A DNA stretch of 34,259 bases, from contig DYJK01000012.1 in assembly GCA_020723165.1 (NCBI GenBank), positions 1 to 34,259 on the forward strand, given 5' to 3'. The notes under the pieces were generated by a model. The model worked only from the letters and a program-made list of their open reading frames with translations. It did no database searches and was not told the origin of the DNA. Of the stretch, positions 26,799-29,214 are shown piece after piece (position 1 is the first letter of the stretch; each line of letters starts with the position of its first letter). The position numbers were made by a program, and so were the translations under genes. The DNA comes from Melioribacter roseus (lineage in GTDB: Bacteria > Bacteroidota > Ignavibacteria > Ignavibacteriales > Melioribacteraceae).

Positions 26799-27485
26799 TT
26801 GAAAGAAAAATTAGCTGTGGTTGCTGTCAGCGGAGGAATGGATAGCTGCGTTACAACGGCTATAGCAGATCTTTCATACCGTTTGGCGCTTGTACATTTC
26901 AATTATGGCCAGAGAACCGAGGCACGCGAGCTGAAAGCTTTTCATGATATCGCTGATTACTATAAAGCTGAAAAAAGATTAGTAATTGATTTTTCACATT
27001 TTACTAAGATCGGCTCTTCATCACTTACAGACAGAAGTATAGAAATATCAAAAGCTGATCTTGATAATAAATCCGTACCTACTTCTTATGTCCCGTTCCG
27101 GAATGCAAATATTTTGAGTGCATGTACAAGTTATGCCGAAGCTATTGGTGCAGCAGCAATATTTATTGGTGCTGTTTATGAAGATGCAAGCGGTTACCCG
27201 GATTGTCGTCCTCAATTTTACGAGGTGTTTGAAAAGATGATTGATATCGGCACGAAACCTGAAACAAAAATAAAAATCGAGACGCCGATAATTTATTTAT
27301 CTAAATCTGAAATAGTTAATGAAGGAATTGAACTAGGTGCGCCGCTCAATTTAACATGGTCTTGTTATCAATGTGAAGACGAAGCATGCGGAGTGTGTGA
27401 TAGCTGCGCGTTTCGTCTGCGCGGTTTCCAGCAAGCCGGTGTAGAAGACCCGATTCCGTATAAAGTGAAACCGAAATATTTTTGA
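26799..27485 (+). CDS. queC: 7-cyano-7-deazaguanine (preQ0) synthase
   Basis: 228-aa ATP-dependent enzyme that converts 7-carboxy-7-deazaguanine to preQ0 in the queuosine pathway. The PP-loop SGGMDS is at residues 11-16. The zinc site is near the end: Cys189, Cys197, Cys200 and Cys203 in WSCYQCEDEACGVCDSCAFR. FNYGQRTEARE, VPFRNANILSACTSYAEAIG and the DASGYPDCRPQF segment are all conserved in QueC. The start is TTG at 26799, preceded by GAGGATTAGG; no in-frame ATG precedes the PP-loop. queF lies 1.35 kb downstream, with two unrelated genes in between. Confidence 0.95.
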   Translation: MKEKLAVVAVSGGMDSCVTTAIADLSYRLALVHFNYGQRTEARELKAFHDIADYYKAEKRLVIDFSHFTKIGSSSLTDRSIEISKADLDNKSVPTSYVPFRNANILSACTSYAEAIGAAAIFIGAVYEDASGYPDCRPQFYEVFEKMIDIGTKPETKIKIETPIIYLSKSEIVNEGIELGAPLNLTWSCYQCEDEACGVCDSCAFRLRGFQQAGVEDPIPYKVKPKYF

Positions 27486-27503
27486 AATGCAATTGAGAAC
27501 CTG

Positions 27504-27523
27504 ACCGCCATCAGTTTGGCGGT
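27504..27523. repeat. Hairpin after queC, matching one in ccoS
   Basis: Stem ACCGCCA/TGGCGGT with loop TCAGTT. The 18-base core CCGCCATCAGTTTGGCGG differs at two loop positions from CCGCCATCTTTTTGGCGG at 20663-20680 inside ccoS. It may serve as a weak terminator for queC (TTTGAG follows) or belong to a dispersed palindrome family. Near-identical AATTGAGAA words flank it at 27491 and 27537. Confidence 0.45.
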
Positions 27524-27595
27524 TTGAGATTGTAGAATTGAGAATTTGCTTGCCGAAGACGAGTGAAGAATAATTAGATATTTTGAGGAGGAGAT

Positions 27596-27802
27596 ATGAA
27601 AAAATATGTTGTCTCTCTTGTTAGAGGTTATGTAGTTGCCATTTCGGCGAAAAGTGAACAAGAAGCAAAAAGATTTGCAGAATATTATATTGGTGGTGAA
27701 AGTGATTTATCTGATGAAAGAGAAAAGGAACGCTTTCAATTTAGAATTGAGCATATTGAAATGACAACTAATGACGCGATCGATATAGAAGAACATAAAT
27801 AA
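27596..27802 (+). CDS. Small protein, possibly DpnD/PcfM-like
   Basis: 68 aa, no membrane segment. The layout is a strand (KKYVVSLVRGYVVAISAKS), a helix (EQEAKRFAEYYIGG), an acidic turn and a second strand (FRIEHIEM), ending in acidic residues. That resembles the DpnD/PcfM-like small-protein fold found with restriction and plasmid genes, but I cannot confirm the family from sequence. GAGGAGGAG just before the ATG makes translation likely. It lies 27 bases before the nuclease-like gene on the same strand, so the two probably form one unit inserted between queC and queF. Confidence 0.6.
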   Translation: MKKYVVSLVRGYVVAISAKSEQEAKRFAEYYIGGESDLSDEREKERFQFRIEHIEMTTNDAIDIEEHK

Positions 27803-27829
27803 TTTTCACAAAAAATAATTGGGTTAATC

Positions 27830-28759
27830 ATGTTCAGAGATGATCAAGCAACATCTATTATGATAGAACAATTTTTAGAGAGAGCAAGTTTAAGATGTAA
27901 AGATGTGAATCCAGTTAGGGTATTAAGGGCTAGAGTATTTCAAATTGGAGAAGCAAATGTTCTTATCAGAGCGGCTACTATGCTAAAAACTCAGAAATAT
28001 TTTTTTGGAATTAATTATATAACTTTAGAAGAAATCGCAAATCTTGAAAATCCATACATTGCATTTATTTGTGGATCTATAGAAAATACGTTGATTATTC
28101 CAGCACAGCTTTTTTTTAGTTTTATCTCAGAACTTAGTCATGATAGAAATGGTGAATATAAAATTAACATTGATAAGGAATTGAATATTGTCTTAAGAGG
28201 CAGAAATAACAGATTAAAGTGTGTTGAATTTCATAATACTTGGGACGCATTTCTAAATCCACTCTTAGCAGAAAAACCTAAAATCACAGCTGAAGAAAGT
28301 ATTCATGCTTTGTTACAAGGTCGTCTTATTGAAATTGGAAATATTAGAGGTTATAAAACATTTTGCCCTGATAAATCAAAAATCTTTAATAAAAAAAGGT
28401 TATCAGATTTTACTACAGTTGAGAATTGCCCTAGATTAGAGTTTGCTGAATATGATGTATTAAGGAAAATTGATGTTTTATGGTTTACAGAAAAACGTGA
28501 TAATCTTATACCTGAGTATGCATTTGAAGTAGAATTATCTACTGGTACATGGTCTGGAGTTGGTCGTCTAGCTACATTAATTGATTATCGACATGTAAAA
28601 ATGTATGTAATTTCCAACGATATTAAAAAATATAAACAAGTTATGCATTCATTTGCTGATTACAGCACAAGATACAATCATGTTTTAATTGATTCATTAG
28701 GAGAACTATATTCAGCGGAACTAAATCTTAAAAAGCTTAGATATGATATTGGGATTTAA
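27830..28759 (+). CDS. Putative PD-(D/E)XK-like nuclease protein
   Basis: 309 aa; no close family recognised. The C-terminal half looks like a restriction-endonuclease fold: helix and strand IHALLQGRLIEIGNIRGYKTF (about 158-178), then KIDVLWF with Asp215, then PEYAFEVELSTGTWSGVGRL with Glu233 and Glu235 and Arg246, then strand VKMYVIS. The D...EVE order matches proteins in defence regions where the terminal Lys of PD-(D/E)XK is replaced by Glu. The N-terminal 150 residues are unassigned and could be a DNA-recognition part. The gene is visibly AT-richer than queC, queF and the lyase gene around it, which suggests transfer. Confidence 0.6.
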   Translation: MFRDDQATSIMIEQFLERASLRCKDVNPVRVLRARVFQIGEANVLIRAATMLKTQKYFFGINYITLEEIANLENPYIAFICGSIENTLIIPAQLFFSFISELSHDRNGEYKINIDKELNIVLRGRNNRLKCVEFHNTWDAFLNPLLAEKPKITAEESIHALLQGRLIEIGNIRGYKTFCPDKSKIFNKKRLSDFTTVENCPRLEFAEYDVLRKIDVLWFTEKRDNLIPEYAFEVELSTGTWSGVGRLATLIDYRHVKMYVISNDIKKYKQVMHSFADYSTRYNHVLIDSLGELYSAELNLKKLRYDIGI

Positions 28760-28839
28760 TTCTAAATTATATATAGATAGATCAGTTACATCAGTTAAGC
28801 AGTGTGTATTATCATCAAATAATATTTTGAGTTTTGATT

Positions 28840-29214
28840 ATGACAGCCAAAACCAAACTCCTCGTAACTTTTCCCAATCCTAATCCGGAGAGGGATTATA
28901 CAATCATCCACACGGCGCCGGAGTTCACATCGCTCTGCCCGGTTACCGGTCAACCAGATTTTGCAACGATAATTCTTGAATACATTCCCGATAAAATTTG
29001 TGTTGAGTTGAAGAGTTACAAATTCTATTTGCAGTCATTCCGCAATGATGGAATTTATTTCGAAGCAGTAACAAACAGAATATTGAATGACCTTGTAAAA
29101 GTTTGCAAACCTCGTTACATGAAGATAACCGCTAAGTTCAACACACGCGGCGGTATTCATTCCGAAATTATCGCCGAACAGAGAAGAAAGAAACTCAAGA
29201 AAAAATTCGTTTGA
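28840..29214 (+). CDS. queF: NADPH-dependent preQ0 reductase QueF (short type)
   Basis: 124-aa tunnelling-fold enzyme reducing preQ0 (7-cyano-7-deazaguanine) to preQ1. The active-site Cys33 is in [12 protein letters not shown] with the general acid Asp40, and the NADPH/substrate motif [20 protein letters not shown] is complete. The size matches the YkvM-type single-domain form. ATG 28840 is preferred over TTG 28834; the ribosome-binding site is weak. QueC makes its substrate, so queC and queF here were probably neighbours before the intervening insert. Confidence 0.96.

Follow-up and report, generated by a model that had tools for sequence, protein, structure and literature searches.

The window analysed here, a 34,259-nucleotide stretch of a Melioribacter roseus genome, carries two genes, A and R, between queC and queF, all four being co-directional. 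The two-gene cassette that a first-pass annotation had described as parting queC from queF is present at these positions, and it contains no methyltransferase gene. The region reads as follows:

26799..27485, + strand: queC, left border of the slot (PF06508, 228 bits, and TIGR00364, both above cut-off)
27486..27595, + strand: spacer, with AGGAGG at 27586-27591 ahead of A (from the sequence)
27596..27802, + strand: A, small restriction-associated protein of 68 aa (relatives beside R or other restriction-modification genes; structural model)
27830..28759, + strand: R, predicted nuclease of 309 aa (52 relatives; model with pLDDT 91.6 and pTM 0.84)
27830..28276, + strand: N-terminal domain of R, about residues 1-149, PD-(D/E)XK-like and probably catalytically dead (VIA-align; conservation of G60 and N62)
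28277..28756, + strand: C-terminal domain of R, about residues 150-309, predicted catalytic PD-(D/E)XK (VIA-align)
28472..28534, + strand: putative active site of R, D215, E233 and E235 (conservation in 47 sequences)
28840..29214, + strand: queF, right border of the slot (PF14489, 111 bits, and TIGR03139, both above cut-off)

The queF start is the ATG at 28840, with a TTG upstream at 28834. The ribosome-binding site assigned to the 68-aa gene in the first-pass annotation corresponds to the AGGAGG before A, and the AT-richness noted there is borne out: R has a GC content of 0.295 and A one of 0.319, compared with 0.40 for queC and queF, and R ranks among the lowest 1% of 930-bp stretches in the window. 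Both A and R are real genes, since both have relatives elsewhere. Comparison of R with its nearest relative (dN 0.18, dS 1.7) points to purifying selection. No terminator-like sites were found between 26700 and 29300, and the promoters predicted in the region numbered 10, against 11 expected by chance.

A single scan of one genome per species retrieved 52 R loci besides the window, spanning Bacteroidota, Acidobacteriota, Chloroflexota, Planctomycetota, Verrucomicrobiota and archaea, among others. Six loci at which R was split, cut off or short (L050, L065, L071, L075, L076 and L077) were omitted from the alignment, the tree and the whole-genome methyltransferase searches; the 46 full-length relatives aligned are 45-75% identical to the window R. 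In the tree, the window R groups with L027 (100/98) and next with L030 (98/97), and phyla are mixed. R retrieved nothing from Pfam, NCBIfam or PADLOC at E-values up to 10, and the TdeIII endonuclease family PF09520 was listed for none of the 47 R members at E-values up to 1. Scattered weak Pfam matches were obtained for the 47 R relatives, the best being DUF4435 in one of the 47 (E 0.0019). Searches of PDB sequences returned two unrelated matches to R (E 0.24 and 0.32) and none to the R profile, and no sequence similarity was found between R and the BisI-family enzymes.

A phage origin of R was rejected after a tblastn search of a phage collection returned no match, and a viral-contig origin after two peptide patterns yielded 92 stretches and no relative. 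A plasmid origin was discarded as well, because none of the 28 matching plasmid records covered more than 80% of R. The proteins of about 420 aa found there, named 'type II restriction endonuclease', have the C-terminal domain in common with R at 28-38% identity; however, they are longer, their N-terminal half is unmatched and their gene contexts differ. In the three records of the 28 that were inspected (L022, L023 and L024, from Caulobacter, Mucilaginibacter and Enterococcus), all three of these proteins adjoin copper or heavy-metal P-type ATPase genes.

The earlier description of R as PD-(D/E)XK-like holds for its predicted fold but not for any sequence family. The model consists of two tandem PD-(D/E)XK-like domains. 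In VIA-align, the N-terminal domain is closest to the homing endonuclease I-Ssp6803I (Z 11.2, rmsd 3.4, 129 aligned), followed by archaeal Hjc (Z of about 9), NhoI (8.2), Eco15I (7.7) and DpnI (6.9), while the C-terminal domain matches the small subunit of R.BspD6I (8.1), EcoT38I (7.2) and BsaWI (6.7). Values of Z below 8 may reflect the common arrangement alone. The top Foldseek match of R is DpnI (4esj; E 3.6e-4), at a low TM of 0.21. Across the 47 R sequences, D215 is present in 46 and E233 and E235 in all, and they form a predicted intact nuclease site, D..E-x-E, in the C-terminal domain; the active site of BamHI is D-E-x-E. In the N-terminal domain, G60 and N62 are invariant (47/47) and N43 occurs in 40 of the 47. 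Mapped by eye, N43 and G60-x-N62 would be the counterpart of PD..(D/E)xK, and this domain is probably catalytically dead. No alignment with genuine Hjc sequences backs the mapping: a search of five archaeal genomes for them gave no more than three partial matches, all weak and to reading frames of 454-456 aa. The N-terminal domain resembles NhoI and Eco15I of the BisI family in its PD-(D/E)XK-like fold, whereas in the BisI family this domain has catalytic activity and recognises methylated GCNGC (PMC11347163), and that of R is apparently dead. One R gene (L061:1504-2439) is probably inactive, since it carries D215N, G239V and H159L at otherwise nearly invariant positions; it is followed by a TdeIII gene that is spread over two frames.

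The first-pass annotation had proposed comparing queC-queF spacing in relatives. Of 57 genomes from the window's family, 53 gave a QueC match, and QueF was sought downstream of it in 51 family genomes and in G263, which belongs to another family of the same order. With G313 and G320 left out for broken matches and G322, G009, G082 and G335 unresolved, the tally covers 47 family genomes. In 29 of these, at most 60 nt separate the two matches; the gap is 61-300 nt in six and exceeds 300 nt in 12. All 12 inserts longer than 300 nt are restriction-type cassettes, of four types (M denotes the TdeIII-type methyltransferase, and B a second small protein):

TdeIII-type restriction-modification (M and TdeIII), six genomes: G047, G188, G296, G304, G328 and G334
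EcoO109I-type restriction-modification (methyltransferase and EcoO109I), three genomes: G176, G297 and G330
Helicase-methyltransferase system (B, A, a 464-aa protein, SNF2 helicase, NOV_C and D12 methyltransferase), one genome: G019
R, two genomes: the window (behind A) and G317 (behind B)

Gene identities were assigned with Pfam at seven loci and with tblastn in G188, G304, G297 and G330. M and TdeIII lie between queC and queF in G263 as well, and remnants were found in G062 (B alone) and G321 (a 43-residue methyltransferase piece). The differing cassettes, empty gaps and remnants indicate that the queC-queF interval, the one gene pair covered by this survey, has been emptied and refilled. 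In G019, of the same genus as the window, the interval is a 7.4-kb island (L111) that includes a C-terminal remnant of an EcoO109I endonuclease by the helicase system. In the literature searched, we found no account of restriction systems between queC and queF and nothing on restriction-modification in Melioribacteraceae. In the immigration control region of E. coli, a conserved gene pair likewise encloses restriction segments that differ from one case to another, along with remnants (PMC3874153). The two regions differ in that the E. coli one has type I and type IV systems and lies between yjiS and yjiA, whereas the slot has mostly type II systems, lies between queC and queF and belongs to another phylum.

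The TdeIII-type genes of the slot are also frequent neighbours of R elsewhere. Counting same-strand matches of more than 38% identity within 3 kb of R, sequences of M, TdeIII or both lie beside R at 30 of the 52 loci, in the order M, small protein (where present), R, TdeIII. At the 20 loci with M, 17 copies are front pieces ending at residues 41-399, one is an inner piece (L031) and two are full length (L057 and L059); L041 also has a weak match on the downstream side of R, which was not counted as M. TdeIII lies beside R at 23 loci, often as its back part only (for example in L027, L033, L041, L043 and L045), and at the R junctions it starts anywhere from residue 1 to 224. It is complete or nearly so in L037, L046, L048, L057, L064 and L072; five of these loci (L037, L046, L048, L064 and L072) have a complete-looking TdeIII and no full-length M of the usual family, either beside it or in the genome.

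Searching 47 R genomes as a whole, we found M at the R locus in 19, with full length in two, and these two are the only ones of the 47 with a full-length M. M occurs in 21 of 296 genomes of the phylum (18 full length, one of 450 aa and two with fragments only), and none of these 21 is among the three full-length-R genomes of that sample. The contrast in full-length M between the R genomes and the phylum sample (Fisher p 5e-7, counting the 450-aa copy among the full-length ones) is an association and not a cause, since the R loci were picked by R and the M genomes by M in one phylum. The proportions, two of 19 against 18 of 21, indicate that the small protein and R persist without that methyltransferase, and we read this as the pair outliving or replacing the restriction-modification genes. 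A strict exclusion of M by R is weakened by three loci. In L057, M, R and TdeIII are all intact by sequence; L059 has a full M and an R with G164E and L300H; and in L041 an EcoO109I-type restriction-modification system, with a methyltransferase of near full length, stands directly behind R. Full-length TdeIII-type methyltransferases lie beside R in L057 and L059 only, and near full-length, stop-free EcoO109I-type methyltransferases are present in four of the 47 R genomes. Between L032 and L033, the M fragments differ with a dS of 0.36 and the R genes with a dS of 1.7 (90 codons compared), a hint of modular recombination. The R cassette resembles the TdeIII- and EcoO109I-type systems in its slot, in the small proteins A and B and in the TdeIII-type sequences that flank it at those 30 loci, but R matches neither family and the window cassette has no methyltransferase.

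At least one small partner is found at 40 of the 52 R loci: A lies upstream of R in 15, B accompanies it in 24 (20 upstream and 4 downstream), and a third small protein is present in two, one of which also has B. On the R tree, seven exchanges between A and B are needed, six of them forced by supported branches. In the 296 phylum genomes, A occurs in six and B in 15; 13 of these A and B loci were inspected, the others being already covered among the R loci or in the slot survey. Every one of the 11 inspected B loci adjoins restriction or defence genes or their remnants (TdeIII restriction-modification in four, HNH_2 in five, SIR2 in one and a TdeIII remnant in one), and the two inspected A loci lie beside TdeIII and CfrBI restriction-modification genes, the latter on the opposite strand. 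We therefore rejected B as the dedicated partner of R, as A and B also accompany other nucleases. The HNH_2 nucleases beside B (L236, L239, L240, L242 and L244) are of about 305-340 aa, one with a weak Mrr_N match. In L233 (G152), a broken TdeIII-type M and B are followed by a 605-aa SIR2-like gene with TPR matches, so a broken M is not peculiar to R. In L036 (2188-2418), B is preceded in the same frame by the initial residues of M as a single fused gene, indicating that a deletion joined both genes.

The model of A is a strand-helix-helix-strand fold (pLDDT 94.7), which had no PDB match at an E-value of 0.001 and, in a comparison with 84 chains, none at a Z of 2 or more. Sequence-family searches gave scattered weak matches only for A and B; the window A had no family match in Pfam, NCBIfam or PADLOC at E-values up to 10, the cut-off of PF14207 (DpnD/PcfM) was not reached, and one of 18 A members matched that family at E 0.03. 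PF14207 proteins were found in none of 20 relatives, but likewise in none of 14 controls. From its size, fold and varied partners, A would serve restriction loci in general, in an accessory or regulatory capacity.

A restriction role for the R cassette is likely. More specifically, we give about an even chance to the reading that A and R form a restriction cassette that stands on its own, is probably modification-dependent (type IV-like) and occupies a slot where defence systems are exchanged. Comparison with relatives, in which the slot is empty or holds other restriction systems, shows that this restriction-type cassette has moved into it. The model and the conserved residues suggest that R is a DNA nuclease that cuts with its C-terminal PD-(D/E)XK domain, and that the N-terminal domain, of the same fold but apparently without catalytic residues, reads DNA. 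R would most likely cut foreign DNA bearing a modification absent in the host, like type IV or type IIM enzymes, with A in an accessory or regulatory role and the que genes providing the site and perhaps transcription. DpnI is a modification-dependent enzyme (PMC3573125), as are the BisI enzymes NhoI and Eco15I (PMC11347163). Modification dependence of R is favoured because most R genomes are without a full-length TdeIII-type methyltransferase, because DpnI tops the Foldseek matches and because VIA-align also matched R with NhoI and Eco15I, although Z values of 7-8 within a common fold are weak. Weighing against the reading are L057, L059 and L041, the EcoO109I-type methyltransferase kept in four R genomes, the five complete-looking TdeIII genes that lack M, and the broken M ahead of a SIR2 gene in G152.

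R might instead be an ordinary type II endonuclease blocked by modification, kept harmless by an unrelated methyltransferase elsewhere in the genome or by A or B. The full M in L057 and L059, the placing of R within the M-small protein-R-TdeIII order and the other methyltransferase genes of R genomes, including weak matches in the window's genome, are what such an enzyme would lead one to expect. We nevertheless think this unlikely, at perhaps one chance in five: 18 of the 20 M genes by R are front fragments or an inner piece, the window cassette is without a methyltransferase gene, and A and B, which replace one another six times or more along the R tree and accompany unrelated nucleases, do not behave as a specific inhibitor would.

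Somewhat less probable still is that R is a DpnI-like antagonist that cuts TdeIII-type-methylated DNA, the cassettes replacing each other as those of DpnI and DpnII do. At the dpn locus of S. pneumoniae, as in the R case, a single chromosomal site accommodates differing types of restriction cassette (PMC3573125). The DpnI cassette further resembles A and R in combining a methyltransferase-free nuclease with a small companion gene, and DpnI is the top Foldseek match of R. The second domain of DpnI is a winged helix, whereas that of R is modelled as PD-(D/E)XK and its VIA matches are PD-(D/E)XK enzymes. The companion of dpnC is dpnD; the DpnI/DpnII cassettes have other flanking genes than A and R, and the resemblance of A to DpnD/PcfM is confined to the one member mentioned above. 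In its full form, to which we give the same low probability, R would be a methylation-dependent antagonist of a TdeIII-type N6/N4 methyltransferase, making an independently evolved DpnI/DpnII-like pair; the arrival of the small protein and R would break M and the endonuclease in one step, and of its two tandem PD-(D/E)XK domains the dead one would be the sensor, the other being active. If true, this would explain why, at one locus after another in unrelated phyla, the small protein and R have the front part of M on one side and the back part of TdeIII on the other. The position between M front pieces and, often, TdeIII back pieces, the occurrence of M-TdeIII and R cassettes in the same queC-queF slot, and the rarity of full M in R genomes (two of the 19 with M at the R locus) all accord with it. 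Nevertheless, L057 and L059 retain a full M, and an EcoO109I-type methyltransferase is retained in L041 and three further R genomes. With GGNCC and RGGNCCY as the recognition sites, that of the EcoO109I-type methyltransferase lies within GGNCC. L233, where the gene after the broken M and B is a SIR2 gene, also argues that the breakage is not R-specific.

It is improbable, at about one chance in ten, that R inserts in restriction operons as a selfish, homing-like nuclease or as a mere passenger, with no role in defence. The N-terminal domain has its closest structural match in a homing endonuclease, I-Ssp6803I, and R is horizontally widespread; however, the junctions vary from locus to locus (M ends at 41-399, TdeIII starts at 1-224), unlike site-specific homing, and the matched domain is, by the eye mapping, without catalytic residues.

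That the cassette acts with 7-deazaguanine made by QueC, the functional tie raised by the first-pass annotation, is very improbable: QueC and QueF adjoin R in the window and in L030, but L030 is the only one of the 52 R loci with either nearby (at most 8 kb per side, in some far less), and the other 51 show R away from que genes in the flanks examined, in the search for the pair elsewhere that had been suggested, an outcome which that annotation had named as refuting the idea. Moreover, one PF01702 (TGT family) match was found in the window's genome, which is 98% complete, and no DpdA-like second copy at the sensitivity of that search, and the slot of relatives is filled by unrelated restriction systems; on these three grounds we rejected a functional link. 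What stands of the earlier interpretation is that the two genes form an AT-rich cassette, that one of them encodes a PD-(D/E)XK-like protein, and that the cassette is tied to restriction. The neighbouring queuosine genes seem to be just the address of the cassette, a warning that function should not be read into a nuclease gene merely because it lies between que genes.

Returning to the reading of A and R as a free-standing restriction cassette, R points to a restriction-nuclease family of bacteria and archaea without a Pfam, NCBIfam or PADLOC model, one that persists mostly without the methyltransferase so often found beside it. The queC-queF interval is a slot that gains and loses restriction systems while the housekeeping genes on either side stay intact. 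With related species in the empty, restriction-modification and R states, displacement of restriction-modification systems by methyltransferase-free nucleases becomes testable in this family.
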